Of a stretch of 64,000 bases of DNA, positions 46,490 to 64,000 are shown piece by piece. Source of the DNA: Anaeromyxobacter terrae. Lineage in GTDB: Bacteria; Myxococcota; Myxococcia; Myxococcales; Anaeromyxobacteraceae. The stretch lies in assembly GCF_022690685.1 (NCBI RefSeq), contig NZ_JALCYY010000010.1:1-64000 (forward strand), written 5' to 3'. The notes under the pieces are model-generated. The model had not been told where the DNA came from, made no database searches, and was given only the letters and a program-made list of their open reading frames with translations. Each line of letters begins with the position of its first letter. The first letter of the stretch is position 1. The position numbers and the translations under genes were made by a program.

Positions 46490-49400
46490 ATGCAGTCCGG
46501 ACTCGGGTCTTTCGCGCGGCCGCGCCTACCTGCGCTGCTGCTGTGCGTCTCCGCGATCTCCGCGGGTCCGCTCGCCTGCGGCAACGAGCGAAAGGTCCAC
46601 GGCGAGGACACCGCGAGCTGCTCGCGCTGCCACGGGAGCGCCGACAACGCGGCGCCTCCGCTCTCGGTCACGGGCGGCCGCGACGCGAGCGACCCCGTCG
46701 TCGGTGCGCACCAGGTCCACCTGCAGGGCGGCCCGCTGCGCGCTCCGCTCGCGTGCTCCGACTGCCACGTGGTCCCGCAGACGGCCGACGCCGCCGGCCA
46801 CATCGACGGGGAGCACGGCACGGTGACCTTCGGCGCGCTCGCCCTCACGGGCGGCGCGTCGCCTCGATGGACCCGCGAGACCGGAACCTGCAGCGGCACC
46901 TACTGCCACGGCGCGACGCTCGGCGGGGGCGCGCTCGTGGCGCCCGTCTGGAACCGCGGCGCAGGCGAGGCCGCGTGCGGTGCGTGCCACGGGCTCCCTC
47001 CGCCGAAGCCTCACGTGCAGAACCCCGACTGCGGGCGCTGCCACCTCGGCTACACCGCCACGTCCGTCGTGGCCGCCACGCACGTGAACGGCAAGGTCGA
47101 CGTGAAGCCGCTCGAGTGCAACACCTGCCACGGCTCCGCGACGAGCTCGGCTCCCCCCATCGGGACCGCCGGCGAGACCGCCACGACGAGCCTCGCGGTC
47201 GGCGCGCACCAGGAGCACCTGCGGGACGGCGCGTTCCGCGCGCGGCTCGCCTGCGGCGACTGCCACGTCGTCCCCACCGTCGCCCTCCACGCCAACGGCA
47301 CCGTCGACCTCGTCTGGGGCGCGCTCGCGACCGCGGACGGCGCGAGCCCGTCCTTCAGCCCCGCGACCGCGACGTGCGCCTCGACCTACTGCCATGGCGC
47401 GACGCTCGCCGGCGGCGGCCTGCTCACCGCGCCCGTCTGGACGCGGGTCGGCGAGGGCCAGGCCTCCTGCGGCGCCTGCCACGCCGCGCCTCCGCCGCTG
47501 CCGCACCCGCAGCGGAGCGACTGCGGCCGCTGCCACCCGGGCGCGTTGACCGCGGACGGATCCGCCATCGACGTCGCCGGTGGCAAGCACATCGACGGCC
47601 ACCTCGATCTCGTGCCGCTCACCTGCACGCTGTGCCACGGCACCGACGGCGTGAACGCGGCCCCGCCCGTGGGCACGCACGGCGAGACCGCCACGTCCGA
47701 GATCGCGGTCGGCGCGCACCAGAAGCACGTGCGCGACGGCGCGATCCGCAAGGCCGTCGCCTGCGCCGAGTGCCACGTCGAGCCGGCGGTGCCGCTGCAC
47801 TCGAACGGCGAGGTGGACCTCGCCTGGGGCGCGCTCGCCGCCGCGAAGGGGACCACGCCCGCGTGGACCCGCGCCAGCGCGACCTGCAGCTCGACGTACT
47901 GTCACGGCGCGACGCTCGGCGGGGGCGGCACGACGAAGACCCCGGTCTGGACCGCCGTGTCCGACGGTCCGACCGCGTGCGGCTCCTGCCACGGCGCGCC
48001 ACCCGCGCTGCCGCACCCGCAGAGCTCCGACTGCTCGCGCTGCCACTCCGGGACCGTCCTCGCGACGGGCGCGATCGACGTCGCCGGCGGCCGGCACATC
48101 GACGGCATCGTCCAGGTGGACGGCGGCGGGTGCACCGCCTGCCACGGTACGCAGGGCGTGAACCCCGCGCCGCCGTTCGGCACGCGCGGCGAGACGCTGA
48201 CCACCCAGCGCGCGGTGGGCGCGCATCAGAAGCACGTCGTCGACGGGCGGATCCGCAAGGCGTTCGCGTGCAACGACTGCCACGCCCTGGTGACCGACCT
48301 GGGCGAGCACGCGAATGGCTCCATCTCGATGCCCTTCACGGGGCTCGCGTCGCAGGGCACGACGCCCATGTGGAACGGCGCGACGTGCAGCTCGACCTAC
48401 TGCCACGGCGCGACGCTCGCGGCGGGCGGCTCGACGCCGGCGCCGACCTGGACCGTGGTCTCCACGGGCCCGACGACGTGCAGCTCCTGCCACGGCGCGC
48501 CGCCGCCCTTGCCGCACCCGCAGAGCGCGGACTGCAGCCGCTGCCACAAAGGCACGGTGCTCGCGACCGGTGAGATCGACGTCGCAGGCGGGAAGCACCT
48601 CGACGGCACGGTCCAGGTGGACGGCGGCGGGTGCACGGCCTGCCACGGCACCGAGGGCGTGAACCCGGCGCCGCCGGTCGGCACGAAGGGCGAGACGCTG
48701 ACGACCCAGCGCGCGGTGGGTGCGCACCAGAAGCACGTGGTGGACGGCGCGATCCGGAAGGCGTTCGCGTGCGGCGCCTGCCACGAGCCGGTCTCCGATC
48801 TCACCCACGTGAACGGTACGATCCCGCTGCCGTTCACCGGCCTCGCCTCGAGCGGCACGACGCCCAGCTGGAACGGCGCGAGCTGCGCCTCGACCTACTG
48901 CCACGGCGCGACGCTCGCCGCGGGCGGCTCGACGACGGCGCCCACCTGGACGGTGGTCTCCGCGGGTCCGACGGCGTGCGACTCCTGCCACGGGGCGCCG
49001 CCTCCGCTGCCTCACCCGCAGAGCACCGACTGCAGCCGCTGCCACTCGGGGACGGTGCTCGCGACCGGCGGGATCGACCTCGCGGGAGGCAAGCACATCG
49101 ACGGCACGGTCCAGGTGGACGGCGGCGGGTGCACGGTCTGCCACGGCACCGAGGGCAAGAACCCCGCGCCGCCGCTCGGCACGAAGGGCGAGACGCTGAC
49201 GACCCAGCGCGCGGTGGGCGCGCACCAGAAGCACGTGGTGGACGGCGCGATCCGCAAGGCGTTCGCCTGTAGCGCCTGCCACGAGCCGGTCTCCGATCTC
49301 ACCCACGTGAATGGCTCGATCCCGCTGCCGTTCACCGGCCTCGCCTCGAGCGGCACGACGCCCAGCTGGAACGGCGCGAGCTGCGCCTCGACTTACTGCC

Positions 49401-52400
49401 ACGGCGCGACGCTCGCCGCGGGCGGCTCGACGACGGCGCCCACCTGGACGGTGGTCTCCGCGGGTCCGACGGCGTGCGGCTCCTGCCACGGCGCGCCGCC
49501 CCCCTTGCCGCACCCGCAGCTCGCGGACTGCTCGCGCTGCCACTCCGGGACGGTCCTCGCGACCGGCGCCATCGACGTCGCCGGCGGAAAGCACATCGAC
49601 GGCACGGTCCAGGTGGATGGCGGCGGCTGCACCCTGTGCCACGGCACCGAGGGCAAGAACCCCGCGCCACCGCTCGGCACGAAGGGCGAGACGCTGACGA
49701 CCCAGCGCGCGGTGGGCGCGCACCAGAAGCACGTCGTCGACGGCGCGATCCGCAAGGGGTTCGGCTGCAGCGCCTGCCACGAGCCGGTGACCGACGGCTC
49801 CCACGTGGACGACGTGATCCCGCTGCCCTTCACGGGGCTCGCCTCCCAGGGGACGGCCCCGGCCTGGAACGGCACCACGTGCGCCTCGACCTACTGCCAC
49901 GGCGCGACGCTCGCCGCGGGAGGGAGCACCCCGACGCCGACGTGGACCCAGGTGAGCGCGGGACAGACCGCGTGCAACGCCTGCCACGGCGCGCCGCCGA
50001 CCACCGGGAACCACCCGCAGAGCGCGGATTGCGCGGCCTGCCATCCGGAGACGGTGAACGCGGACGGAACGATCAACGTGGCCGGCGGTCGGCACATCGA
50101 CGGTACGGTGCAGGTGGCGGGCGGCTGCAGCCTGTGCCACGGCTCGGACGCGAACCCGGCGCCGCCGGTCGGGACGAAGGGTGAGACGGCCACGACGACC
50201 CTGGCGGTGGGCGCCCACCAGTCGCACGTCCGAGCGGGCCCGCTCTTCGGGGCGATGACCTGCGACGCGTGCCACCAGTTCTCCGACGCGACGCACCGCA
50301 ACGGCGTCGCGGATCTCACCTGGGGGACGCTGGCCACGAAGGGAGGCGCGATCCCGAGGTTCGACGCGGCGACGGCGACCTGTGCCGCCACTTACTGCCA
50401 CGGCGCGACGCTCGGCGCGGGCGGCTCGCTCACGACGCCGACCTGGAACAAGGTCGACGGTACGCAGGCAGCCTGCGGCACCTGCCACGGCGCGCCGCCG
50501 ACCACCGGGAACCACCCGCAGAGCGCGGACTGCGCGGCCTGCCATCCGGAGACGGTGAACGCGGACGGCACGATCAACGTGGCCGGCGGTCGGCACATCG
50601 ACGGAAGCGTGCAGGTGGCGGGCGGCTGCAGCCTGTGCCACGGCTCGGACGCGAACCCGGCGCCGCCGGTTGGCACGAAGGGTGAGACGGCCACGACGAC
50701 CCTGGCGGTGGGCGCCCACCAGTCGCACGTCCGAGCGGGCCCGCTTTTCGGGGCGATGACCTGCGACGCGTGCCACCAGTTCTCGGACGCGACCCACCGC
50801 AACGGCAGAGTCGATCTCACCTGGGGGACGCTGGCCAGCATGGACGGCGCGGTCCCGAGCTTCGATCCGGCCGCCATCACGTGCACGAACTACTGCCACG
50901 GCCAGACGCTCGGCGCGGACGGCTCGCTCACGACGCCGAAGTGGACGACGGTGGACGGCACGCAGGCGGCCTGCGGCACCTGCCACGGGAACCCGCCGCA
51001 GTCGGCCCACCCGGACAACCCGCTCTGCAACTCTTGCCACCCGTTCACGGTCGCGTTCGATGGCACCATCGACGTCGCGGGCGGCCGCCACATCGACGGG
51101 AACGTCGACGTGGCTGGCCTGACGTGCAGCGCATGCCACGGCTCGACGGACAACCCGGCGCCTCCGGTCGGCACCCGGCAGGAGACGGCCACCACGACGC
51201 GCGCCGTCGGCGCGCACCAGGCGCACGTGCGCGCCGGCGCGCTGCGCAACGCCCTCGAGTGCAGGGATTGCCACGTCGTACCCACCGAGACGATCCACTC
51301 GAACGGCGTCGTGGACCTCGCCTGGGGCCGGCTCGCCACGTCGGACGGGGCGGTTCCGGGCTTCGATCCCGACGCCCTCACGTGCACCAACTACTGCCAC
51401 GGCCAGACGCTCGACGCAGGCGGCTCGCTCACGGCGCCGAGGTGGACGACGGTGGACGGAACGCAGGCGGCCTGCGGCACCTGCCATGGCGCGCCGCCGC
51501 CCGCGCCGCACCCCGCCTCCTCGCCCACGGGCTGCGCGCGGTGCCACCCGGACACCGTGACGGATCAGGGCACGATCGATCTCGCCGGTGGCCGCCACAT
51601 CGACGGGAAGCTCGACGTGTCCGGCGCGTGCGGCGACTGCCATCCGGTCCCGGGCGCGAGCGGCGCCCACCTCGTGCACGCGGCGTTTCCGACGCCCGAC
51701 GTGCCCGGGTACGGCGATCTGCGCATCCTCGAGGCCTACGCGCCGGGCGGGGGCTCCGACTACGAGTTCGGCTGCGGCAACTGCCACCCGCTCGACCCGG
51801 CGAAGCACATGGACCGTGAGGTCGAGGTGGAGCTCACGCCGGCGGGCGCGGCGACGGGCTCGCTGCGCGCGCGGAACGCGCCGGACGCCGCGTACGACGC
51901 GGGGACGGGCCGGTGCACCGGCGTGTACTGCCACTCCTCGGGCCAGGCGCTCCCGGTGTACGCGACGGCGCCGGGCTGGAGGTCGAACGCGCAGCTCGGC
52001 TGCGACGGCTGCCACGGCAACCCGCCGAGCTACGCGTCCGGCGGCGCGGGCGCGTCCGACGCGAACGCCCACATCGGGCTCACCAACCAGGGGCGCGAGT
52101 TCGGCCACTACGTCGGCCTGGGCGGTCCTGCGCACGCGAGCAAGCACGGCAGCGCAGCGCCGGGCGAGGCGGCCGCGCCGATCACCTGCCAGACGTGTCA
52201 CTACGCGACGACCGATCCGACGGCGACCGGGCCCTCGAAGTTCTACTGGCTCGACACGACCGGCAGCTACGTGCTCGCGGGCGGCGATCCCGCCCGGCTG
52301 ACGGACCCGCGCTGGAAGGCGACGCAGTGCGGGACCTGTCACGGAGCCGGCGGCGCCCCGGTCCTGCAGGGCAAGGTCCTGCCGCTCACCCACGTGAACG

Positions 52401-52720
52401 GCCGCCGCGACGTGGTGTTCGACCCGCGCACGACGCTGCCGTCGATCCCGGGTCTCCCGCCCGCGCCGGAGACGCCCACGCGGCCGTACTGGGTCACGCC
52501 TGCGCGGTTCTGCGAGGCCGTCCCGGCCGGCGCGGTCATCGAGGGCACGACGCTCTCGATCGAGCTCTCGGGCGCCGCGTACGACCCGGCGACGAAGCGC
52601 TGCTCCGGGGTGGCCTGTCACCTCGGCGACGCGCCGGTGTGGGGCCGGCAGTACCTCGCGAACCCCACGTCGGGCACCGCGAGCTGCTGCCGCTGCCACT
52701 CGAGCCGCTGCGGCCCGTGA
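46490..52720 (+). CDS. Giant multiheme c-type cytochrome (about 58 haem motifs)
   Basis: Exported cytochrome of 2,076 residues. The ATG at 46490 follows GGGGAGGG. The signal peptide ends at a possible lipobox GPLAC (Cys30), with Pro at -3, so lipoprotein status is probable but not certain. By hand count there are 58 haem motifs: 46 CxxCH, 10 CxxxxCH (for example CSGTYCH and CASTYCH) and 2 CxxxCH (CTNYCH). From residue 44 to about 1713 they occur in ten tandem units of 166-169 residues, each with the order CxxCH, CxxCH, CxxxxCH, CxxCH, CxxCH. Each unit also carries AVGAHQxHV, HxNG and IDVAGGxHIDG, whose His residues may be distal haem ligands. A non-repetitive tail holds eight more motifs, including CTGVYCH and CSGVACH. 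The pairing of CxxxxCH with CxxCH is known from Geobacter outer-surface cytochromes (TIGR01904-type). Likely role is long-range extracellular electron transfer. Confidence 0.93.
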   Translation: MQSGLGSFARPRLPALLLCVSAISAGPLACGNERKVHGEDTASCSRCHGSADNAAPPLSVTGGRDASDPVVGAHQVHLQGGPLRAPLACSDCHVVPQTADAAGHIDGEHGTVTFGALALTGGASPRWTRETGTCSGTYCHGATLGGGALVAPVWNRGAGEAACGACHGLPPPKPHVQNPDCGRCHLGYTATSVVAATHVNGKVDVKPLECNTCHGSATSSAPPIGTAGETATTSLAVGAHQEHLRDGAFRARLACGDCHVVPTVALHANGTVDLVWGALATADGASPSFSPATATCASTYCHGATLAGGGLLTAPVWTRVGEGQASCGACHAAPPPLPHPQRSDCGRCHPGALTADGSAIDVAGGKHIDGHLDLVPLTCTLCHGTDGVNAAPPVGTHGETATSEIAVGAHQKHVRDGAIRKAVACAECHVEPAVPLHSNGEVDLAWGALAAAKGTTPAWTRASATCSSTYCHGATLGGGGTTKTPVWTAVSDGPTACGSCHGAPPALPHPQSSDCSRCHSGTVLATGAIDVAGGRHIDGIVQVDGGGCTACHGTQGVNPAPPFGTRGETLTTQRAVGAHQKHVVDGRIRKAFACNDCHALVTDLGEHANGSISMPFTGLASQGTTPMWNGATCSSTYCHGATLAAGGSTPAPTWTVVSTGPTTCSSCHGAPPPLPHPQSADCSRCHKGTVLATGEIDVAGGKHLDGTVQVDGGGCTACHGTEGVNPAPPVGTKGETLTTQRAVGAHQKHVVDGAIRKAFACGACHEPVSDLTHVNGTIPLPFTGLASSGTTPSWNGASCASTYCHGATLAAGGSTTAPTWTVVSAGPTACDSCHGAPPPLPHPQSTDCSRCHSGTVLATGGIDLAGGKHIDGTVQVDGGGCTVCHGTEGKNPAPPLGTKGETLTTQRAVGAHQKHVVDGAIRKAFACSACHEPVSDLTHVNGSIPLPFTGLASSGTTPSWNGASCASTYCHGATLAAGGSTTAPTWTVVSAGPTACGSCHGAPPPLPHPQLADCSRCHSGTVLATGAIDVAGGKHIDGTVQVDGGGCTLCHGTEGKNPAPPLGTKGETLTTQRAVGAHQKHVVDGAIRKGFGCSACHEPVTDGSHVDDVIPLPFTGLASQGTAPAWNGTTCASTYCHGATLAAGGSTPTPTWTQVSAGQTACNACHGAPPTTGNHPQSADCAACHPETVNADGTINVAGGRHIDGTVQVAGGCSLCHGSDANPAPPVGTKGETATTTLAVGAHQSHVRAGPLFGAMTCDACHQFSDATHRNGVADLTWGTLATKGGAIPRFDAATATCAATYCHGATLGAGGSLTTPTWNKVDGTQAACGTCHGAPPTTGNHPQSADCAACHPETVNADGTINVAGGRHIDGSVQVAGGCSLCHGSDANPAPPVGTKGETATTTLAVGAHQSHVRAGPLFGAMTCDACHQFSDATHRNGRVDLTWGTLASMDGAVPSFDPAAITCTNYCHGQTLGADGSLTTPKWTTVDGTQAACGTCHGNPPQSAHPDNPLCNSCHPFTVAFDGTIDVAGGRHIDGNVDVAGLTCSACHGSTDNPAPPVGTRQETATTTRAVGAHQAHVRAGALRNALECRDCHVVPTETIHSNGVVDLAWGRLATSDGAVPGFDPDALTCTNYCHGQTLDAGGSLTAPRWTTVDGTQAACGTCHGAPPPAPHPASSPTGCARCHPDTVTDQGTIDLAGGRHIDGKLDVSGACGDCHPVPGASGAHLVHAAFPTPDVPGYGDLRILEAYAPGGGSDYEFGCGNCHPLDPAKHMDREVEVELTPAGAATGSLRARNAPDAAYDAGTGRCTGVYCHSSGQALPVYATAPGWRSNAQLGCDGCHGNPPSYASGGAGASDANAHIGLTNQGREFGHYVGLGGPAHASKHGSAAPGEAAAPITCQTCHYATTDPTATGPSKFYWLDTTGSYVLAGGDPARLTDPRWKATQCGTCHGAGGAPVLQGKVLPLTHVNGRRDVVFDPRTTLPSIPGLPPAPETPTRPYWVTPARFCEAVPAGAVIEGTTLSIELSGAAYDPATKRCSGVACHLGDAPVWGRQYLANPTSGTASCCRCHSSRCGP
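46619..51628. repeat. Ten tandem repeats of about 500 bp inside the cytochrome gene
   Basis: Units start at about 46619, 47117, 47624, 48131, 48632, 49130, 49628, 50126, 50627 and 51125, each 498-507 bp and in frame. Units 5-7 resemble each other most closely, and units 8 and 9 are almost identical over at least 330 bp at an offset of 501 bp, as expected for recent duplication or gene conversion. Confidence 0.9.
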
Positions 52721-53789: not shown

Positions 53790-54668
53790 CTACAGCCCGG
53801 AGAGCCGCTCCGCGCCCGCGTAGACGTTCATGCGGCCCGGGCGGACGAAGCCGGCGAGCGTGAGTCCGGCCGCTCGGGCGAGCTCGATCGCGAGCGACGT
53901 CGGCGCCGACACGGTGGCGACGATGGGGATCCGCGCGCGCGCGGCCTTCTGCACGATCTCCATGCCCGCCCGGCTGCTCACGGTGAGGAGCGCGGGCGCC
54001 GCCGCGGGCGCGCCGGCGGCCGCCTCCGCGCGGGCGAGGAGGAGCGCGCCGATCACCTTGTCGACCGCGTTGTGACGGCCGACGTCCTCGTGCGCGGCGA
54101 CGAGCGCGCCGTCCCGCGTCCAGAGCGCGGCGACGTGCGTCCCGCCTGTCTCCTCGAACACCGGCTGGTGGTCGCGGAGCGCCGCGATCTTCTCGCCGAC
54201 GAGGGCGGCCGGGATCGGGGCGATCGGCTCCGGGGCGACGAGCCCGGCCACGAGATCCTCGACGGCGCGGCGCCCGCACACGCCGCAGGCGGAGCTCGAG
54301 GCGACGCTGCGCCGGGAGCCGTCGATCCGCTCCCAGTCGATGCGGGCGCCCGAGGCCGGGGCGAGCTCGATCGCGCTGCCGTACGCCTCGTCGCCGGGGC
54401 GGCCGCAGTGGTACACGGCGCTGAAGTCGCTCGCGGACGCGATGATCCCCTCCGAAAACAGGAAGCCGAGCGCGAGCCGGTGGTCGTCCCCCGGCGTGCG
54501 CATCAGCACCCCGACCGTCTCCCCGGCGATGCGCACCTCGAGCGGCTCCTCGAGCGCGACGACATCGGAGGCGGCGCCGTCGCCGGGCCGCACGACGGAG
54601 GTCCCCGTGGTCCGCCCGTCGACCGCCGCGCGCCGCGCCGCGCGCGCGGGCGCCGGATCCTCGCTCAT
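53790..54668 (-). CDS. fdhD: Formate dehydrogenase accessory sulfurtransferase FdhD
   Basis: FdhD of 292 residues, needed to sulfurate the molybdenum/tungsten bis-MGD cofactor of formate dehydrogenase using sulfur from IscS. The active CxxC (Cys128, Cys131) lies in SSSACGVCGRR; LGFLFSEGII, HEDVGRHNAVDKVIG and TVSSRAGMEIVQKAARA are conserved family blocks. The start is fixed by ATGA overlap with the stop codon of the upstream sensor gene (ATG at 54668). A GTG at 54689 would give seven more residues. The gene serves the Sec-containing formate dehydrogenase at 59164, some 4.5 kb away on the other strand. Confidence 0.95.
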   Translation of the reverse strand: MSEDPAPARAARRAAVDGRTTGTSVVRPGDGAASDVVALEEPLEVRIAGETVGVLMRTPGDDHRLALGFLFSEGIIASASDFSAVYHCGRPGDEAYGSAIELAPASGARIDWERIDGSRRSVASSSACGVCGRRAVEDLVAGLVAPEPIAPIPAALVGEKIAALRDHQPVFEETGGTHVAALWTRDGALVAAHEDVGRHNAVDKVIGALLLARAEAAAGAPAAAPALLTVSSRAGMEIVQKAARARIPIVATVSAPTSLAIELARAAGLTLAGFVRPGRMNVYAGAERLSGL

Positions 54669-56650
54669 CGGACGAGACACGGCCGGCACTCCGGACCCGG
54701 ATCGCCCTCACCGCCGCCCGGGCCGTCCACCGCGCGCCTCACGGCGGTCTGGTCGGTCACGACCTCGAGCGCCCCCACCACCCGTCCCGCGCCGTCGCGG
54801 AGCGGGACGGCCGAGTAGAGGATCTGGAGGTCGAGGCCTTCGGGGTGCGCGTCCGTCTCGCTGCTCACCTCGCGGTCCTCCGTCATCGCGCGGGCGCAGG
54901 CGCAGCGCGCCGTCCTGCAGTCGCCCTTGCGGTAGCTGTCGTAGCACTTCGTCCCGACGAGCTCCTGCGGCGTTCGACCGAGGAGGCTCGCGCCGGTCTG
55001 GTTCATGTAGCGGATGTCGAACTCGGGGCTCACGATCATGGCGGGCGCGGGCATGGCGTCGAGGTGCCCCACGAGCGTCGAGAGCGTGGCGTTCACACCC
55101 TCCACCACCTCCCGGAAGTCCCCCTGGTGCCGCGACGGATCCGCGCGCTCGGAGAGCCGGCCCTCGACGGCGGCGTCGGCGAGGGCCCCCGTCTCCTCGA
55201 CGAGCCGGCGCAGCTCGGACTGCGCCGACAGGACGCTCCGGGTCAGCTCGTCGCGGTCGGAGCGGAGCACGAGCGGGGTCGAGAGATCGCCGCGGGCGAG
55301 GGCCGCCGCGCCCCGGGCGACCTCCTGGAGGTAGCGGATCGTCCCGCGGAACGCCTCGGCGAGGCGCCCGACCTCGTCGCCCGAGCGGTAGGTGACCTCC
55401 TGCTGGACGTCGCCCTCGGCGATGCGCTCGGCGGCGACGGCCATCGCCTCGAGCGGCGCGGCGAGCCGGCTCGCCGCCTTGCGCGCCGCCCAGATGCTCG
55501 CGAGCAGGAGCAGGAGGCCCACGCCGACGACGGTGACGGCCGAGGCCGCGAGCGAGGACTGCACCACGCGGAGCGGCGCCACCGCCTCGTCGCGGTCCAT
55601 CTCGGCGACGATCACCCAGTCCCACGGCGCGAAGTAGGCGACCGCCGCGACCCGCTCGCGCGGTGCGCGCCCGGTCTCCGGGCGGGAGAAGGACACGCGC
55701 ACGGTGTCGCCGTTCGCCTCCATCGCCGCGCGCACGAGCGCCTGGACGTACGCCTCGCCGCGGGCGTCGCGCGCGTCCCACGCGTCCTCGCCGTCGGCGT
55801 GTCCCGGGGGCGGGATGAGGTAGTGGCCGCGCTGGTTCCCGCTCGCGCCGAGCGCGTACATCGTGCCCGTCTCGCCGATCCGCGAGGCGGCCACGCCGGC
55901 GCGGATGCCCTCGAGGGAGTCCTGGCGCAGCCCGATGAAGAGCATCCCCGCGATCCGGCCGCTCGCGTCGCGGATCGGCTCGTAGCCGGAGAGGTACCAG
56001 CGGTCGAGCACCCGCGCGCGTCCCCGGTACGTCTCGCCGCGGAGCACCGTGGAGACGACCGGGTTCGGCTTGCCGTCGGGATCCACCGCCGGGATGTAGG
56101 TGCCGATCGCCCGGTGGCCGTTCCCGTCCGGCACCGTGGTCGCGACGCGGAGCATGTCGCCCCGCTCGTTCATCCGCTGGAAGAGCGTGGCCTCCGCGCC
56201 GACGAGCTCGCGGACGCGATCGACGAGCAGGCTCGGCCGCGCCGGCTCGGCGTTCTGGCCCGCCCAGGCGCCGCCGAGGAGCAGCTTCGGAAGCACCGCC
56301 TCGCCGGCGCTGCGGTCGAGCTGGTTCACCGCCGTCCAGCGCACCGTCTCCCGCGAGAACGACAGCGGCCCGAGCCGCTCCATCTGATCGCGGGCGACGC
56401 GCAGGCTGCGGGGCACCTGTTGCCAGAGCTCGCGGTGAGCGGACTCGCAGAGCGTGCGCAGGTCGCGGGCGGCCCGCGTGAGCCCCTCCTCCGCGAGCCG
56501 GCCCATGCTCGCCTCGACGTCCCCGGCGATGCGGCTGCGCTGGGCCGCGAACACGACGAGGAACGCGGCGACGAGCAGCGCGGTGGGCAGCAGGGCGACG
56601 ACCAGGATCTTGCGGCGCAGGTCGAGGCCGCTCGTTCGCATCTGGAACAC
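54665..56650 (-). CDS. Cache-HAMP-PAS sensor protein without output domain
   Basis: Membrane sensor of about 661 residues. TM1 (about 14-35) and TM2 (about 367-388) bracket a long periplasmic Cache-type domain that includes the GRARVLDRWYLSGYEPIRDASGRIAGMLFIGL and APWDWVIVAEMD segments. In the cytoplasm a HAMP (about 388-441) is followed by one or two further HAMP-like segments (443-525). A PAS domain (about 530-635) comes next, with a cysteine cluster, KCYDSYRKGDCRTARCACARAM (Cys569, 578, 583, 585), seen in PAS domains of chemoreceptors. Normally a methyl-accepting or kinase domain would follow, but the protein ends in a Gly-rich tail with a further CxxC (655, 658). Its stop overlaps the fdhD start. 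The GTG at 56650 follows GGAGGA; ATG 56641 is an alternative. Confidence 0.85.
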   Translation of the reverse strand: MFQMRTSGLDLRRKILVVALLPTALLVAAFLVVFAAQRSRIAGDVEASMGRLAEEGLTRAARDLRTLCESAHRELWQQVPRSLRVARDQMERLGPLSFSRETVRWTAVNQLDRSAGEAVLPKLLLGGAWAGQNAEPARPSLLVDRVRELVGAEATLFQRMNERGDMLRVATTVPDGNGHRAIGTYIPAVDPDGKPNPVVSTVLRGETYRGRARVLDRWYLSGYEPIRDASGRIAGMLFIGLRQDSLEGIRAGVAASRIGETGTMYALGASGNQRGHYLIPPPGHADGEDAWDARDARGEAYVQALVRAAMEANGDTVRVSFSRPETGRAPRERVAAVAYFAPWDWVIVAEMDRDEAVAPLRVVQSSLAASAVTVVGVGLLLLLASIWAARKAASRLAAPLEAMAVAAERIAEGDVQQEVTYRSGDEVGRLAEAFRGTIRYLQEVARGAAALARGDLSTPLVLRSDRDELTRSVLSAQSELRRLVEETGALADAAVEGRLSERADPSRHQGDFREVVEGVNATLSTLVGHLDAMPAPAMIVSPEFDIRYMNQTGASLLGRTPQELVGTKCYDSYRKGDCRTARCACARAMTEDREVSSETDAHPEGLDLQILYSAVPLRDGAGRVVGALEVVTDQTAVRRAVDGPGGGEGDPGPECRPCLVR

Positions 56651-56826: not shown

Positions 56827-58848
56827 ATGCTCGTGCTCCCGGATGCAACAGACCGCTCGTCACTCCGGCGGCGCCTCGACCGTGCGTGGGAGCGCTTTCT
56901 CCGTGACGGCGAGCTGGACGGCGTGCGGCCCGAGATCGCGCGCTCGTGGACGCGGGTGCGCGACGTGTACCACGTCGAGCCGGGGCTCCGCCGCGCGCCG
57001 CTCGATCCCCGCGGCGAGGTCCTGCGCCGCCGCGGCGAGGACGAGACCTTCGAGCTCGCGCGTCCGGTGCTGGCGCAGCTCTCGACCCGGCTCCGCGACG
57101 CGGGGCACGCCCTCGCGCTCCTCGACGGGGAGGGGCTCGTCCTGTCCGTCGGCGGCGACCCGCAGCTCGTCGCCCGCCTCGCGGAGCTGAACCTCTGCCC
57201 CGGCGCGAGCTGGCGCGAGGAGGCGGCCGGCACGAACGCGGCAGGCACGGCGCTCGCCGAGCGGCGCGCGATGGAGGTCTTCGCCTCGGAGCACTTCCTC
57301 GAGGTGCTCCACCCCTTCACGAGCGCCGCGGCGCCCATCGTCGCGCCCGCGTCCGGCGAGGTCGCGGGGCTCGTCCAGATCACCGGCCCGTGGGACGCGA
57401 GCGAGCCCCAGGGCCTCGTCGCCGCGGCGGCGATCGCGGCAGCGATCGAGGAGCGGCTCCGCGCTCGCCAGGAGCTGCGGGACGAGCTCGTCCGCCACGC
57501 GCTCCGCGCCGCCCGGACGTCGGGCGAGGCGGTGGTCGCGGTCGACGCGCGCGGGCGCGTCCTCGCGACGAACGACGCCGCGCGCCGCAGGCTCGCGTTC
57601 GAGGACGGCGAGCTCCCGCGCGCGACGCGCGAGCGGCTCGTCGCGGCCCTCGCGGGCGGGGAGGCGTCCCGGGACGAGGAGCTCACGGTGGAGTGGCCGG
57701 GGACGGGGGACGAGCGCCGCAGGGTGACCTGCTCCGTGGTCGCGCACGAGCGGCGGCCGGTGGGCGCGGTCCTGCACGTCCCCGCGCCCTCGGGGCCGCG
57801 CGCGGCGCGCGCGGCGGCGCGCCAGCGGCTCACGACGCGCTACGGCCTCGAGGCGATCCTCGGGGAGTCGCTCCGGCTGCGGACGGCGCTCGATCTCGCC
57901 GAGGTCGCGGCCCGGAACGATCTGCCGGTGGTCCTGCACGGCGAGTCCGGCACGGGGAAGGAGCTCTTCGCGCACGGGATCCACGCCGGCGGCGACCGGG
58001 CCGGCGCGCCGTTCGTGGTGCTGAACTGCGGCGCCATCCCGGCCGCGCTCGTCGAGGCGGAGCTGTTCGGCTACGAGCCCGGGACCTTCACCGGCGCGCA
58101 GCGGGAGGGCAAGGCGGGCAAGTTCGAGGAGGCCGACGGCGGGACGCTCTTCCTCGACGAGGTCAGCGAGCTCCCGCTCCAGGCGCAGACGGCGCTCCTG
58201 CGCGTGGTCCAGGAGGCCGAGGTGGTCCGCCTGGGCGGGAGCGCTCCCCGGCACGTGGACGTGCGGGTGGTGGCCGCGACGAACCGGCGGCTCTACGACC
58301 AGGTGGAGGCCGGCCGCTTCCGCCAGGACCTCTACTTCCGCCTGAACGTGCTCCACGTGGACATCCCGCCGCTGCGGGATCGGAGCGAGGACGTGCCGCT
58401 CCTCGCCCGCGCGTTCCTGCGCGAGGCGGAGGAGCGGATGGGCCGCGATGCGCTCGAGCTGTCGGACGCCGCGAAGGCGCTGCTCCTCGCCCACCCGTGG
58501 CCGGGGAACGTCCGCGAGCTCAAGAACGTGATCATGCGCGCGGCCGCGGTGGTCGTGGGGTCGCGCATCGAGCCCGCCGACCTGCGGCTCGCGCCGGCGC
58601 GCGGGGTCGCACCGCTCCGCGTGGACGCGGCGCCGCCGCGCCCGTACGTGGAGGTCCGCTCGTCCGAGCCGCCCGCCGATGCAGCGGCCGTGGCCGACGC
58701 CGCCGCCGAGCCGGAGGGGCCGGAGCGGGACGAGCTCGTCGCCGCGCTGGACGCGTGCGGCTGGAACATCGCGCGGACGGCGACGTCGCTCGGCGTCTCG
58801 CGGATGACGCTCTACCGCCGCCTGCGGAAGTTCGGCATCACCAGGTAG
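56827..58848 (+). CDS. Sigma-54-dependent activator, AcoR type
   Basis: Enhancer-binding protein of 673 residues. The N-terminal GAF-like sensory region (about 45-200) has GASWREEAAGTNAAGTALAERRAMEVFASEHF, a hallmark of the AcoR subfamily. A PAS-like segment follows (about 230-310). The AAA+ domain shows Walker A GESGTGKE (372-379), GTFTGA (419-424; a change from the canonical GAFTGA sigma-54 contact loop), Walker B GTLFLDEVSELP and the Arg fingers. A Fis-type HTH closes the protein (ALDACGWNIARTATSLGVSRMTLYRRLRKFGI). It is directly upstream of a -24/-12 promoter and twin palindromes in front of the formate dehydrogenase gene, and divergent from the sensor/fdhD pair, so it is the probable activator of formate metabolism. 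Confidence 0.92.
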   Translation: MLVLPDATDRSSLRRRLDRAWERFLRDGELDGVRPEIARSWTRVRDVYHVEPGLRRAPLDPRGEVLRRRGEDETFELARPVLAQLSTRLRDAGHALALLDGEGLVLSVGGDPQLVARLAELNLCPGASWREEAAGTNAAGTALAERRAMEVFASEHFLEVLHPFTSAAAPIVAPASGEVAGLVQITGPWDASEPQGLVAAAAIAAAIEERLRARQELRDELVRHALRAARTSGEAVVAVDARGRVLATNDAARRRLAFEDGELPRATRERLVAALAGGEASRDEELTVEWPGTGDERRRVTCSVVAHERRPVGAVLHVPAPSGPRAARAAARQRLTTRYGLEAILGESLRLRTALDLAEVAARNDLPVVLHGESGTGKELFAHGIHAGGDRAGAPFVVLNCGAIPAALVEAELFGYEPGTFTGAQREGKAGKFEEADGGTLFLDEVSELPLQAQTALLRVVQEAEVVRLGGSAPRHVDVRVVAATNRRLYDQVEAGRFRQDLYFRLNVLHVDIPPLRDRSEDVPLLARAFLREAEERMGRDALELSDAAKALLLAHPWPGNVRELKNVIMRAAAVVVGSRIEPADLRLAPARGVAPLRVDAAPPRPYVEVRSSEPPADAAAVADAAAEPEGPERDELVAALDACGWNIARTATSLGVSRMTLYRRLRKFGITR

Positions 58849-58871
58849 CCCCCCCCGTCCGCGATCACCGC

Positions 58872-58892
58872 CCGTCGATGCCGCATCGACGG
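58872..58892. terminator. Perfect palindrome after the activator gene
   Basis: CCGTCGATG-CCG-CATCGACGG, a 9-bp perfect stem with 3-nt loop, 23 bp after the regulator stop. It could be a terminator stem (no T-run) or another protein-binding site. Confidence 0.4.
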
Positions 58893-58894
58893 TG

Positions 58895-58916
58895 TGTCAC
58901 GCGCCGTCGCGTGACA
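58895..58916. promoter_or_regulatory. Probable activator-binding palindrome 1
   Basis: TGTCACGC-N6-GCGTGACA, a perfect 8-bp inverted repeat. It lies 112 bp upstream of the sigma-54 promoter, the usual distance for an upstream activator sequence. Confidence 0.6.
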
Positions 58917-58937
58917 TGTCACACGCGCATCGTGACA
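58917..58937. promoter_or_regulatory. Probable activator-binding palindrome 2
   Basis: TGTCAC-N9-GTGACA directly adjoins palindrome 1; a further half-site GTGAC is at 58941-58945. Pairs of such sites are typical for cooperative binding of enhancer-binding proteins. Confidence 0.55.
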
Positions 58938-59028
58938 CCTGTGACGCTCGCGCTGGGATTTCCCGCGCAAGCCTGTCGCTCGCTCGGCCTCCGGAGCGCG
59001 GCGGCGCATCCGTTTCGCGTCTCTTCCC

Positions 59029-59044
59029 TGGCAGGTGTCTTGCT
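59029..59044 (+). promoter_or_regulatory. Sigma-54 promoter of the formate dehydrogenase operon
   Basis: TGGCAG-N5-TTGCT with the invariant GG and GC separated by exactly 10 bp. Transcription would start near 59055, leaving a leader of about 109 nt before the ATG at 59164. Confidence 0.8.
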
Positions 59045-59163
59045 CTGGCGCCTTCGCGACGCACGAAGGCCAAAAAAGACCTGAGCAGTCAGGTACATGC
59101 GGCGGTCGTCGCGAAGGCTTCGAAGTGAGCGGCAGTCGACAGAAGTCACCGGAAAGGGAAGCG

Positions 59164-62100
59164 ATGAGCATCAGCAGAAGAAACTGGCTCAAGTTGACGG
59201 CCGGCGGCGGCGCCGGCCTCGCGCTCGCCGAGCTCGGCTTCAGCGCGGCGAAGGTCCAGGCGGCGACGGGGCACCTGAAGCTCACGGGCGCGAAGCAGTT
59301 CACGACCGCCTGTAACTTCTGCTCCTGCGGCTGCGGCATGGTCTGCAACGTGGTGGACGGCAAGCTCGTCAACCTCGAGGGCGATCCGGACCACGTCATC
59401 AACCAGGGCGCGCTGTGCTCGAAGGGCGCGGCGATGCAGGCGACCCACGAGTCCGACCGGCGCGTGAAGGCGCCGATGTACCGGGCGCCGGGCTCGGACC
59501 GCTGGCAGGAGATCAGCTGGGACGAGGCGCTCGAGAAGCTCGCGCGCAAGGTGAAGGACGTCCGCGACTCGACCTGGATCGCCACCGAGAAGGACGGCGA
59601 CGTCGAGTATCCGGTCAACCGCACCGACGCGATCGGCTTCCTCGGCGGCGCGCAGAACACCAACGAGGAGTGCTACCTCTGGAACAAGATGGGGAGGCTC
59701 TTCGGGACGAACTTCGTCGAGCACCAGGCCCGACTTTGACACAGCCCCACGGTCCCCAGTCTGGGGGCCACGTTCGGCCGTGGCGCGATGACGAACCACT
59801 GGGCGGATCTGCAGAACGCCAAGGTGTTCCTCATCGAGGGCAGCAACGCCGCCGAGAACCACGTGATGTCGATGAAGTGGATCCGGAAGGCGCAGGCGAA
59901 GGGCGCGAAGATCATCCACGTCGACCCGCGCTTCAACCGCACCTCGTCGATCGCGGACATCTACGCGCGCATCCGCCCCGGCGCTGACATCGCGTTCCTG
60001 GGCGCGGTCATCCACCACGTCCTCGAGAACGCGCTCTACGACGTCGAGTACGTGAAGCTGCACACGAACGCGCTCCTCCTCGCGAAGGACGAGTTCGGCC
60101 TCGACGACGGCGTCTTCACCGGCTACCACGAGGACAAGCACAAGTACGACACCGCCTCGTGGGCGTACGACCTCGACGCCGCGACGCAGAAGCCGAAGAA
60201 GGCGGCGAGCCTCGACGACCCGCGCTGCGTGTTCTCGAAGCTGAAGCGGCACTTCGCGCGCTACACGCCCGAGGTCGCCGAGGAGATCTCGGGCGTCCCG
60301 GCGGAGCAGATCAAGCTCATCGCCGAGACGTTCGCGAACAACCGGCCGGGCACGATCCTGTACGCGCTCGGGATGACGCAGCACACGGTCGGCATCCAGA
60401 ACATCCGCTGCTACGGCATCCTCCAGCTGCTCCTCGGCAACATCGGCAAGGCCGGCGGCGGCGTGAACGCGCTGCGCGGCGAGCCGAACGTCCAGGGCGC
60501 CTGCGACATGTCCGTCCTGAACGGCTACATGTTCGGCTACATCAACGCCCCGAACCACAACCACCCGACGCTCGAGGCGTGGACGAAGGACAACGGCACG
60601 TTCCGCCGGAAGTTCACCGTCAACGGCCTCAAGGCGTGGTTCGGCGACAACGCCACCGCCGAGAACGACTTCGGCTGGAGGTGGCTCCCGAAGAAGAACG
60701 GCGCGAAGGACTACACCGTCTTCGGGATGATCGACGACGCGTACGCCGGGAAGCTGAAGCTCCTCTGGGCCGTCGGGCAGAACCCGATGGTCACGAACCC
60801 GAACCTGAACTACGTGCACGAGGCGCTGTCGAAGCTCGACATGCTCGTCGTGCAGGAGCTCTGGGACACGGAGACGGCGAGCTTCTGGCAGCGGCCGGGC
60901 GCCGACCCGAAGTCGATCCAGACCGAGGTGCTCCTCCTCCCCGCCGCGTACTTCATGGAGAAGGAGGGCACGATCAGCGGCTCCGGCCGCCTCGTGCAGT
61001 GGCGCTACGCGGCGGTGAAGCCGCCCGGCCAGGCGAAGGCGGACCTCGAGATCATCGACACGGTCTTCCGCAAGGTCCGGGGCCTCTACGCCGGCTCGAC
61101 CGATCCGAAGGACGAGCCGCTCACGAAGGCGGTCTGGAACTACCCCGCCCAGAACACGGCCGAGGCGGTGCTCCAGGAGATCAGCGGCCGCGTGCTCGCC
61201 GAGGTGACGCTGCCCGACGGCAAGGTGCTGCAGCCCGGCGCCTTCGTCGCCGGCATCGGCCAGCTCCAGGCGGACGGCTCGACGTCCTCGGGCGCCTGGA
61301 TCTACGCGGGCGTCTTCGGCGGCGGGAAGAACCTCTCGAAGCGCCGCGACGCGAAGACCGATCCCTCGGGCCTCGGGATGTTCCCCGGCTTCGCCTGGAC
61401 CTGGCCCGGCAACATGAAGATCCTCTACAACCGCGCGTCCTGCGACGCGGACGGCAGGCCCTGGGCCGGCACGACCCCGCTCGTCTGGTGGGACGCGACC
61501 GAGAAGAAGTGGAAGGGCGTCGACACGCCGGACGTGCCGGACGCCACGAAGGGCCCGGACACGCCGGAGGGCCAGCGCGCGTTCCGCATGAACGGCGAGG
61601 GCATCGGCCGGCTCATGGCGGCGGTCTACAAGGATCCTGACGCGAAGGAGAAGGAGAAGGGGCTGCCGCGCGACGGCTCGTACGTGCCGAAGGACGGCCC
61701 GTTCCCCGAGTTCTACGAGCCCATCGAGAGCCCGGTCGCGAACGTGCTGCACCCGAAGGCGCAGCACAACCCGTGCGTGAAGTACCCGCGCGTCCCGGGC
61801 AAGCAGCCCGTCGGCACGGCGAAGGACTTCCCGTACGTCCTCATGACGTCCTCCATCGCGGAGCACTGGTGCGCCGGGTCCACGACCCGCAACGTGCCGT
61901 GGCTCAACGAGCTGCAGCCGGAGTGCGTCGTGGAGCTGCCGACCCAGCTCGCGGAGAAGCTGCGGGTGAAGGGCGGCGACAAGGTGCGGGTCTCGTCGGC
62001 GCGCGGTGAGATGCTCGTGAAGGCCGTCGTCACGAAGCGCATGCAGGTCATGAGGATCGCCGGCCAGGACGTGCCCGTCGTGTGGATGCCCTACAACTGG

Positions 62101-62238
62101 GGCTTCAAGGGGCTCTCCACCGGTCCGTCGACCAACGTGCTGACCATCGACGCCGTCGACCCGGGCGCCGGCACGCAGGAGACCAAGGCCTGCCTCGTCA
62201 ACGTGGTGCGCGTGGAGGAGGCGGTGGCGCAGCGCTAG
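59164..62238 (+). CDS. fdnG: Selenocysteine formate dehydrogenase, catalytic subunit
   Basis: Molybdopterin formate dehydrogenase of 1,024 residues; oxidises formate to CO2. It is one gene, not two: the frame continues through TGA at 59737-59739, which encodes Sec192 in EHQARLUHSPTVPSLGATFGRGAM, at the position known from E. coli FdnG (Sec196). The ATG at 59164 follows GGAAAGGGAAG. The N-terminus has a Tat signal (SRRNWLKL), so the enzyme faces the periplasm. Ligands for one [4Fe-4S] cluster are in ACNFCSCGCGMVC and ALCSKG. The C-terminal molybdopterin-dinucleotide-binding domain includes SIAEHWCAGSTTRNVPW and ELPTQLAEKLRVKGGDKVRV. It is followed after 29 bp by the fused electron-transfer subunit and is probably driven by the sigma-54 promoter at 59029. 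Confidence 0.96.
59737..59739 (+). other. UGA codon read as selenocysteine (Sec192)
   Basis: In-frame TGA in a fully conserved context (EHQARL-U-HSPTV). The flanking frames are identical, and the codons on both sides encode family-typical sequence, so premature termination can be excluded as the main reading. Confidence 0.95.
59751..59769 (+). promoter_or_regulatory. SECIS-like hairpin
   Basis: GGTCCCC-AGTCT-GGGGGCC, a 7-bp stem (one wobble) with an AGUCU loop resembling the GGUCU loop of bacterial SECIS elements. It starts 12 nt after the UGA. Outer pairing of CCACGG (59747) with CCGTGG (59778) may extend it. Confidence 0.7.
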
Positions 62239-62267
62239 CCGGCTGCGACGCCTCGAAAGGAACGACC

Positions 62268-64000
62268 ATGAGCAACGCCACGTTGATCGACACGACGAAG
62301 TGCATCGGGTGCCGCTCCTGCCAGGTCACCTGCAAGCAGTGGAACGACATGCCGGCGGAGCAGACGCAGCTCCAGCCTTCCGCAGGCATGCAGAACCCGC
62401 TCACGCTCTCGGCGAAGACCCTGTGCGTCATCACCGCGCACGAGGTCGACGCCCCGAGCGCGCCGGGCGGGATGCAGTACGTCTTCGCGAAGCGCCAGTG
62501 CATGCACTGTGACGAGCCGGCCTGCGCGTCGGCCTGCCCGGTGACGGCCATCCACAAGACGAAGGAAGGGCCGGTCGTCTACGACGAGTCGAAGTGCATC
62601 GGCTGCCGCTACTGCATGTGGGCCTGCCCGTGGAGCGTGCCCATGGCGGAGTGGGACTCGCTCGCGCCGAAGATCCACAAGTGCGACATGTGCCACGACC
62701 GGGCGCTCCAGCCCGCGCCGGCGCTCCGCAACGGCGAGGCGCTCACCGGCGAGGACCAGAAGCGCTTCGCGGCGGCCATCGCGCTGCCGGCCTGCGTGAA
62801 GCAGTGCCCGGCGGGCGCGCTGAAGTTCGGCGATCGCGAGGAGCTCCTCCGCGAGGCCCGCGAGCGGATGGCGGCGAGCCCGGGGAAGTACGTCGACCAC
62901 GTCTACGGCGAGAGGGAGGCCGGCGGCACGAACATGCTGTACCTCGCGAGCGTGCCGTTCGCGGAGCTCGGGTTCCCGCAGGTCGGGACCGACGCCCTCC
63001 CGAGGCGGAGCGCGGTCGCGCTCGGTGCGGTGCCGCCCGCCGTCATCGGCGTGGGCGCCGCGCTCGGCGGGGCCTACGCGCTGCACAAGCGCCGCGAGGA
63101 GGTCGCGAAGGTGGAGCCGAGGTCGATCAAGAAGGCCGCGAGGCCGGACGCGCACGACCACCACGTCGAGTTCGCGCCCGTCACGTCGAAGCTCTGGACG
63201 CCCGCGAACATCCTGCTCGCGGCGCTCATGGCCTTCGGCGGCGTCTCCTTCGTGGCCCGGTTCGCCCTCGGCCTCGGCCGCTCGACGAACCTGTCCGACA
63301 CCTGGGCGTGGGGCCTCTGGATCGTCTTCGACCTCGTCTGGATCGCGGTGGCGGCGGGCGCGTTCGCCACGGCCGGCCTCATCTACGTGTTCCAGCGGAA
63401 GGACCTCTACTCCATCGGCCGCTCCGCCGTGCTGATGGGGCTCCTCAGCTACTCGTTCGTCACGGTGACGCTGCTCGCCGACCTCGGCATGCCGTGGCAC
63501 TTCTGGCAGCTCGCGCTGAACGCCCCCGAGCACTCGGCGATGTTCGAGGTCTCCTGGTGCGTCGGCCTCTACGTGACGGTCCTCCTCGCCGAGTTCCTGC
63601 CGGTGCCGTTCGAGCGCTGGGGCATGAAGGCGGCGATGGAGACCTGGAAGCGCTGGTCGCCCGTCTACGTGGTCTTCGCCATCTCGGCGTTCGTGTACCT
63701 GATGTCCCGTAACCTCGTGTACACGGGCCTCGCCGCGGCGACCTTCGGCTTCATGGCCTGGGCGTTCCGCGCGCAGCCGGGCAAGAAGGCCGAGCCCATC
63801 ATGCTCGCCATCGCGGCGGTGACGTTCTCCACGATGCACCAGAGCTCGCTCGGGTCGCTGTTCCTCCTCATGCCCGACAAGCTCGCCAAGGGGTGGTGGT
63901 CGCCGGTGATGCCGGTCTACTTCTTCCTCTCCTCGGTCGCGGCGGGCGTGGCGCTCATGGTCATCGTCGAGATGTGGATCGCGAAGGGCTTCAAGCGCGC
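62268..64000 (+). CDS. Fe-S subunit fused to NrfD/HybB-type membrane subunit (3' end outside window)
   Basis: Open frame from the ATG at 62268 to the window edge (577 codons, no stop). Residues about 1-215 are an FdnH/HybA-like ferredoxin subunit with the cysteine sets CIGCRSCQVTC, CMHCDEPACASACP, CIGCRYCMWACP, CDMCHD and CVKQCPAGA, enough for four [4Fe-4S] clusters. A single helix follows (about 245-265), like the C-terminal anchor of FdnH. Then, without a stop, comes an NrfD/HybB-type region with at least eight helices (from about 310: KLWTPANILLAALMAFGG, WGLWIVFDLVWIAVAAGAF, WHFWQLALNAPEHSAMFEVSW, SSLGSLFLLMP). This module normally is a separate quinone-reacting protein without haem. The fusion replaces FdnI, the usual cytochrome b subunit. 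It lies 29 bp after fdnG and has AAAGGAACG before the ATG. Confidence 0.9.
   Translation, partial: MSNATLIDTTKCIGCRSCQVTCKQWNDMPAEQTQLQPSAGMQNPLTLSAKTLCVITAHEVDAPSAPGGMQYVFAKRQCMHCDEPACASACPVTAIHKTKEGPVVYDESKCIGCRYCMWACPWSVPMAEWDSLAPKIHKCDMCHDRALQPAPALRNGEALTGEDQKRFAAAIALPACVKQCPAGALKFGDREELLREARERMAASPGKYVDHVYGEREAGGTNMLYLASVPFAELGFPQVGTDALPRRSAVALGAVPPAVIGVGAALGGAYALHKRREEVAKVEPRSIKKAARPDAHDHHVEFAPVTSKLWTPANILLAALMAFGGVSFVARFALGLGRSTNLSDTWAWGLWIVFDLVWIAVAAGAFATAGLIYVFQRKDLYSIGRSAVLMGLLSYSFVTVTLLADLGMPWHFWQLALNAPEHSAMFEVSWCVGLYVTVLLAEFLPVPFERWGMKAAMETWKRWSPVYVVFAISAFVYLMSRNLVYTGLAAATFGFMAWAFRAQPGKKAEPIMLAIAAVTFSTMHQSSLGSLFLLMPDKLAKGWWSPVMPVYFFLSSVAAGVALMVIVEMWIAKGFKR

Follow-up and report, generated by a model that had tools for sequence, protein, structure and literature searches.

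Here, we analyze the control region of a selenocysteine (Sec) formate dehydrogenase (FDH) gene in a stretch of 64,000 nucleotides (hereafter the window) from Anaeromyxobacter terrae, a soil bacterium with a 5.65 Mb genome. From left to right, the locus consists of a divergent sensor gene (54665-56650, minus strand), a sigma-54 activator gene (56827-58848, plus strand), 315 bp of intergenic DNA, and the gene for the FDH alpha subunit (59164-62238, plus strand, with its ATG at 59164). The alpha subunit is recognized by the formate dehydrogenase-N (FDH-N) family TIGR01553: the part encoded from 59788 to 62235 alone scores 819.5 bits, above the cut-off of 814.2, and the part before Sec scores 190.7 bits. 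As in other bacterial selenoprotein genes, an in-frame TGA (59737-59739), read as Sec, is followed by a SECIS element (SECIS_3, 59734-59792, plus strand; Rfam RF01989, 65.5 bits versus a gathering threshold of 63).

An earlier note on this DNA had placed an activator gene, labelled AcoR-type there, just upstream of the control region; AcoR, the acetoin regulator, responds to acetoin and targets aco genes, and the predicted target here is FDH. That gene ends at 58848, and its product of 673 amino acids (aa) is of the sigma-54 type by its AAA+ domain (residues 344-511; Pfam PF00158, 213.2 bits) and its Fis-type helix-turn-helix (HTH; residues 633-669; HTH_8, 48.1 bits), together with the motifs GESGTGK and GGTLFLD and a contact loop. 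RpoN itself has one match in the genome. The sensory half of the activator, with GAF and PAS folds, resembles that of Escherichia coli DhaR in sequence (residues 27-259 match 4lrx, E 9.6e-10) and in modelled fold: a model of residues 1-331, with a mean pLDDT of 81.1, reaches Z ~22 with three DhaR(N) chains (next rows at or below 12.4), and superimposes on 4lrz with Z 22.1 and rmsd 2.2 over 197 residues at 21% identity. Judged by the model, the N-terminal half is a DhaR(N)-like module by fold; superposition on 4lrx over both domains gives an rmsd of 13.8. The activator differs from DhaR itself in reaching 299 bits against NCBIfam NF008485, whose equivalog cut-off is 551. The sole other match to the sensory half in the same genome (L054:6232-7488, 35%) is a 418-aa frame with no Pfam match at 1e-5.

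Both DNA elements that the earlier note had described between the two genes, half-site palindromes and an exact -24/-12 box, lie where it placed them. The palindromes, TGTCAC-N10-GTGACA at 58895-58916 and TGTCAC-N9-GTGACA at 58917-58937, are the two matches in the window to TGTCACN{7,11}GTGACA, a pattern that is found in none of 100 dinucleotide shuffles. The predicted sigma-54 promoter TGGCAGGTGTCTTGCT (59029-59044, plus strand) has an exact GG-N10-GC (59030-31 and 59042-43), no mismatch to TGGCAN6TTGCW, and a score of 14 of a maximum of 14.5, using weights that we set from the sigma-54 consensus. With at most one mismatch allowed, 1.12 matches to this consensus are expected by chance in the window, and a single match, the perfect one, was found; since about one chance match is expected, the box alone is weak evidence. 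Transcription from sigma-54 promoters usually starts about 12 nt after the -12 GC, a rule that predicts a start near 59055 (plus strand) and a leader of about 109 nt.

Stronger constraints emerge when the locus is compared among relatives. The sensor, activator and FDH genes occur together in five genomes, namely A. terrae, A. soli (G017), A. oryzae (G015), G016 and G018; the N-terminal half of the A. terrae activator is 80% identical to that of A. soli and 61% to that of A. oryzae. When the five loci are aligned, the -24/-12 box is kept in all of them (scores 13-14), and so, letter for letter, is a 12-bp word, GTGACATGTCAC (58911-58922), which spans the junction between the two palindromes and which we propose as the activator site. 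The distance to the box is 106 bp from this core and 91 bp from the second palindrome. The flanking half-sites are more variable. The outer left TGTCAC (58895-58900, plus strand; N10 from the core) is present in 4/5 loci and absent in G016, the outer right GTGACA (58932-58937, plus strand; N9 from the core) is present in all five at gaps of N8 to N10, and a further half-site, GTGACG (58941-58946, plus strand), is shared by the window, A. soli and G018. Across loci, the outer gaps take every value from N7 to N11. Because the core is kept throughout while the outer gaps vary and the left arm is missing in G016, sequence comparison identifies the junction GTGACATGTCAC, and not the palindromes themselves, as the invariant unit; in this respect the earlier proposal that the TGTCAC/GTGACA palindromes form the recognition unit has to be revised.

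The reciprocal comparison involves seven relatives (G013, G014, G019 and G021-G024) that have an FDH orthologue without a linked activator. These orthologues are 76-81% identical to the A. terrae protein after the Sec codon and 69-78% over the first 191 aa. Within 400 bp upstream of them, neither the GNNACATGTNNC core nor a GTGACA/TGTCAC half-site occurs in any of the seven, the nearest 12-mer is 4-6 mismatches away, and no box scores 13 or more. In the stretches fetched around these seven genes, the sole match to the sensor is a weak one (L144, 32% over 146 residues). Other FDH genes in the A. terrae genome (L147, L148) and in G015 and G018 (L151, L152) likewise have no core and no box above 10. 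Activator, operator and sigma-54 promoter thus appear to go together, as all five activator-bearing loci support. A weaker -24/-12-like box, TGGCCCGGGCGGTGCA, is seen upstream of FDH in three similar regions without activator (L140, L141 and L142).

The distribution of the 12-bp word over whole genomes points in the same direction. The exact 12-mer was found in 10 of 19 genomes chosen from the family and in 21 of 145 genomes of the order. Across 24 genomes of the family it occurs in 11, at 14 places. Of the 16 genomes that encode a close homologue of the activator (E <=1e-60), 11 have the word, versus none of the eight without one, and 11 of the 14 places are no more than 10 kb from such a homologue. 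A. terrae itself has the exact word once, and a second time if one mismatch is allowed (C24:34192); the latter was not counted as a target, as it overlaps an apparent start codon (by eye). The earlier note had suggested searching the genome for further TGTCACGC-N6-GCGTGACA sites. This arrangement occurs once in 5.65 Mb, at the site described here, so there are no further sites of that exact form.

What genes carry the word elsewhere? Exact or near cores are found beside aldehyde dehydrogenase genes (L040, L046, L047, L049, L050, L085 and L150, in most cases together with a DUF779 gene), aldehyde ferredoxin oxidoreductase genes (L041, L048), moaA (L041, L157), a radical SAM/SPASM gene (L041) and a molybdopterin oxidoreductase gene (L083), and these non-FDH genes mostly adjoin activators related to the FDH-linked one. 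The HTH sequence SRMT[LV]YR of the FDH activators recurs in those activators that neighbour aldehyde dehydrogenase and oxidoreductase genes with a core. In a tree of the activators, which left out L037 (cut by a contig end), L048b and L051 (incomplete frames) and L052-L054 (no Walker A or contact loop), the FDH activators group into a single clade (support 100/99), joined at 98/97 by L044, an activator with chemoreceptor genes as neighbours and no core in the stretch fetched. In A. oryzae, the exact 12-mer lies upstream of FDH and also (at 5275099) of an aldehyde ferredoxin oxidoreductase gene, so that the circuit may not be private in that species and cross-talk is possible. At L040:6492-6516, an aldehyde dehydrogenase gene is preceded by a pair of core-like words placed side by side, GTTTACATGTCGC and GCGACATGTAAC.

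Of 17 non-FDH cores, 14 have a box of at least 12.5 no more than 200 bp away in either direction, versus 4.0% of 4000 random positions; once L042:3262 (which has ACATGT and a box of 13.5) is counted, the figure becomes 15 of 18. The 17 cores include three with two mismatches (L040:6505, L041:3791 and L042:6089) and omit two-mismatch matches without ACATGT (one each in L033, L034, L035 and L054, two in L036). A matrix built from 14 non-FDH cores ranks the junction top in all five FDH loci (25.3-25.9 bits; next best at or below 1.7). Because these cores were gathered by their likeness to the 12-mer, it is the boxes, rather than the likeness, that provide the independent part of this evidence. 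Outside the family, the core was found at 10 places in 121 genomes. Only at the one in G138, which precedes a moaA homologue, are an activator match and a box of 12.5 both present; at the other nine no box reaches 12.5, and one of these, in G053, lies inside an activator-like frame. The G138 locus (L157), from another family of the order, repeats the layout of activator end, exact core, weak sigma-54 box and target gene.

This comparison covers the parts and their conservation, the loci where they occur or are missing together, and the genes beside related activators that share the core. From it, we consider it very likely that the intergenic DNA is a sigma-54 control region in which the activator, acting at GTGACATGTCAC, switches on the Sec FDH. 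In the simplest scheme, RpoN-polymerase would wait in a closed complex at 59029-59044, while the activator encoded just upstream would bind the 12-bp core at 58911-58922, aided by the outer half-sites 9-10 bp from it. The assembled activator would then loop over the ~106 bp to the promoter and, hydrolysing ATP, open it, so that the mRNA for the Sec enzyme would begin at about 59055. As the signal, we think most likely either formate (or a one-carbon compound related to it), which would act on the GAF/PAS half, or a partner protein, for which the divergent sensor is a candidate.

Could the promoter-like and palindromic matches be meaningless coincidences? A box pattern that turns up about once per window at one mismatch invites the question, but the conservation of both elements inside an otherwise diverged intergenic region, together with the shuffle, random-position and absence controls, already contradicts this idea, and we find it hardly credible. 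One could also suppose that the core binds a different DNA-binding protein and that the activator has its site at another place or is unconnected with FDH. Palindromes of this size would suit many regulators, and the assignment of the site to the activator is itself drawn from sequence. It is difficult, however, to see why the 12-mer should then track the activator family so closely (11/16 versus 0/8 genomes), or why good boxes should lie 74-178 bp from it at differing target genes, and we judge this explanation very improbable.

A closer competitor is the register of the earlier note, with two dimer sites, one on each palindrome (TGTCAC-N10-GTGACA and TGTCAC-N9-GTGACA). The six-base arms are perfect in both palindromes, the right arm is kept in all five loci and the left in four, and 6 of 14 non-FDH cores, too, are accompanied by outer half-sites (GTGACA/G or T/CGTCAC; gaps 5-12). 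The remaining 8 of the 14 have no outer arm at those gaps, however, and the occurrence of all gaps from N7 through N11 would be unusual for a fixed dimer. Moreover, in the 19 genomes, with the five FDH loci excluded, 5 of 8 exact 12-mers lie within 10 kb of an activator, versus 3 of 12 outer palindromes, and two of those three overlap a one-mismatch core. Separate dimers on each palindrome are accordingly rated unlikely, though less so than either of the preceding explanations. Sequence comparison makes the outer half-sites a frequent but not a fixed feature of the cores.

Several observations nevertheless weigh against control of FDH by the activator through the core. The contact loop of the activator reads GTFTGA, a variant of GAFTGA. 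Three of the seven FDH loci without activator (G013, G014 and G019, whose upstream regions are much alike) have a box of 12.5, so that sigma-54 may be used there as well. A good box is missing at 3 of the 18 non-FDH cores (L042:6089, L048:16537 and L084:5335). Further, the stretches fetched at the paralogue loci L038, L039, L043, L044 and L045 have no core, even though L045 carries an aldehyde dehydrogenase pair. Finally, the five FDH loci are kin, as the monophyly of their activators indicates, and so are the aldehyde dehydrogenase loci; the counts given above therefore overstate the number of independent cases.

The earlier note had envisaged a single-input circuit of activator, enhancer, promoter and Sec enzyme. 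Comparison supports that circuit in part, through the joint occurrence of activator, operator and promoter in all five loci, the single RpoN match and the Sec FDH-N with its SECIS_3 element. The single input is doubtful, because an output-less divergent sensor is co-conserved with the activator in 5/5 loci and because the sensory half of the activator resembles that of DhaR, which was solved with partners; both leave room for a second input. The A. terrae sensor has 661 aa, and in all five loci it contains Cache_3-Cache_2, HAMP and PAS_4 domains by Pfam, which found no output domain; MCPsignal (PF00015) was not found in any of the five. Among relatives of the sensor, L164 and L166 (from G021 and G023, of other genera), the two in which domains were tested, do have MCPsignal, and L165 from G022 has a similar C-terminal sequence by eye. 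By sequence, then, the divergent sensor is related to chemoreceptors and has no signalling domain. Its PAS region contains several cysteines.

What, then, does a DhaR-like activator respond to? Perhaps the GAF domain directly senses formate, formaldehyde or another aldehyde, with the sensor being incidental. This possibility, which concerns the signal only and is compatible with the circuit proposed above, fits with the location of activator paralogues next to aldehyde-handling genes and with the behaviour of FhlA, the E. coli sigma-54 activator that responds to formate. Against it, the sensor accompanies the activator in all five loci, and the closest structures to the sensory half are of DhaR(N). 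The activity of DhaR is set by its partners DhaK and DhaL. The DhaR(N) structures (PDB 4lrx, 4lry, 4lrz) were solved in complex with one or the other. We give direct sensing about an even chance. A more speculative idea, to which we would assign a rather low probability, is that the sensor, a chemoreceptor relative without the signalling hairpin, serves as protein partner of the activator: its periplasmic Cache region would read formate in the compartment of the exported enzyme, and its HAMP-PAS part would dock on the DhaR(N)-like half, much as DhaK or DhaL docks on DhaR. If so, a membrane sensor would drive a sigma-54 activator without a kinase or phosphate transfer.

The predicted leader contains a 35-nt block (59068-59102, plus strand) that is conserved in 3/5 loci only, being near-identical in the window, A. 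soli and G018 and absent from A. oryzae and G016. It includes a small hairpin, with one mismatch in G018, and has no Rfam match. We considered and discarded a riboswitch in the leader: Rfam matches between 58000 and 62500, with E allowed up to 1, were limited to SECIS_3, a 12-bp inverted repeat (59050-59061/59107-59118) is incomplete by eye in A. soli and G018, and 21 of 200 shuffles fold as well as the leader does (z -1.36). The locus is flanked on the left by fdhD, for the formate dehydrogenase accessory sulfurtransferase (53790-54689, minus strand; Pfam and NCBIfam), and on the right by a frame for an Fe-S plus NrfD-type membrane subunit (62265-63998, plus strand; profile matches), which runs off the window. 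Further to the left, a 2076-aa frame (46490-52720, plus strand) with repeats and many CxxCH-like motifs is a candidate large multihaem cytochrome.

The use of short palindromes by an activator with a Fis-type HTH recalls NorR, whose site is GT-N7-AC. The arrangement here differs in being GT-N8-AC, and the activator scores 308 bits against the NorR family, whose cut-off is 476. The literature searched contained no report of the 12-bp word or of this locus, and no work joining Anaeromyxobacter, formate dehydrogenase and sigma54, an absence that is no proof; formate dehydrogenase is not mentioned in the available portion of PMC4641369. A cross-phylum survey reports that predicted sigma-54 control in Proteobacteria and Bacilli is enriched for a COG containing formate dehydrogenases; the accessible text of that survey has no Anaeromyxobacter and gives no operator (PMC12316311). 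In Clostridiales, AorR, AdhR and related proteins are predicted to be sigma-54 activators whose targets are genes for aldehyde oxidoreductase (aor-moaD) and alcohol dehydrogenase. As far as the excerpted text describes it, their site differs from the present one, in which ACA directly meets TGT within the core, and the spacings formed with the outer arms are TGT-N16-ACA and TGT-N15-ACA (PMC6615313). Within 58880-58950 of the window, TGT-to-ACA gaps are 1, 15, 16, 18 or 23, and none is 10-12. The Geobacter sulfurreducens fdnG operon (GSU0777-0781) encodes a Sec formate dehydrogenase and has an RpoN promoter listed as validated by primer extension; in the part of that report available, no activator or operator is named for it (PMC2725144). 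Geobacter thus already provides a known case of a Sec formate dehydrogenase under sigma-54 control, and sigma-54 activators of aldehyde oxidoreductase genes have already been predicted in Clostridiales. To these systems, the A. terrae locus would add a corrected operator to examine, the junction rather than the palindromes, and would link the control of FDH, in some Anaeromyxobacter, with a family of sigma-54 activators that shares one DNA word and has its other members next to genes for aldehyde dehydrogenase, aldehyde ferredoxin oxidoreductase and the molybdenum cofactor, a ready test case of a regulator family that keeps its site while the target changes.
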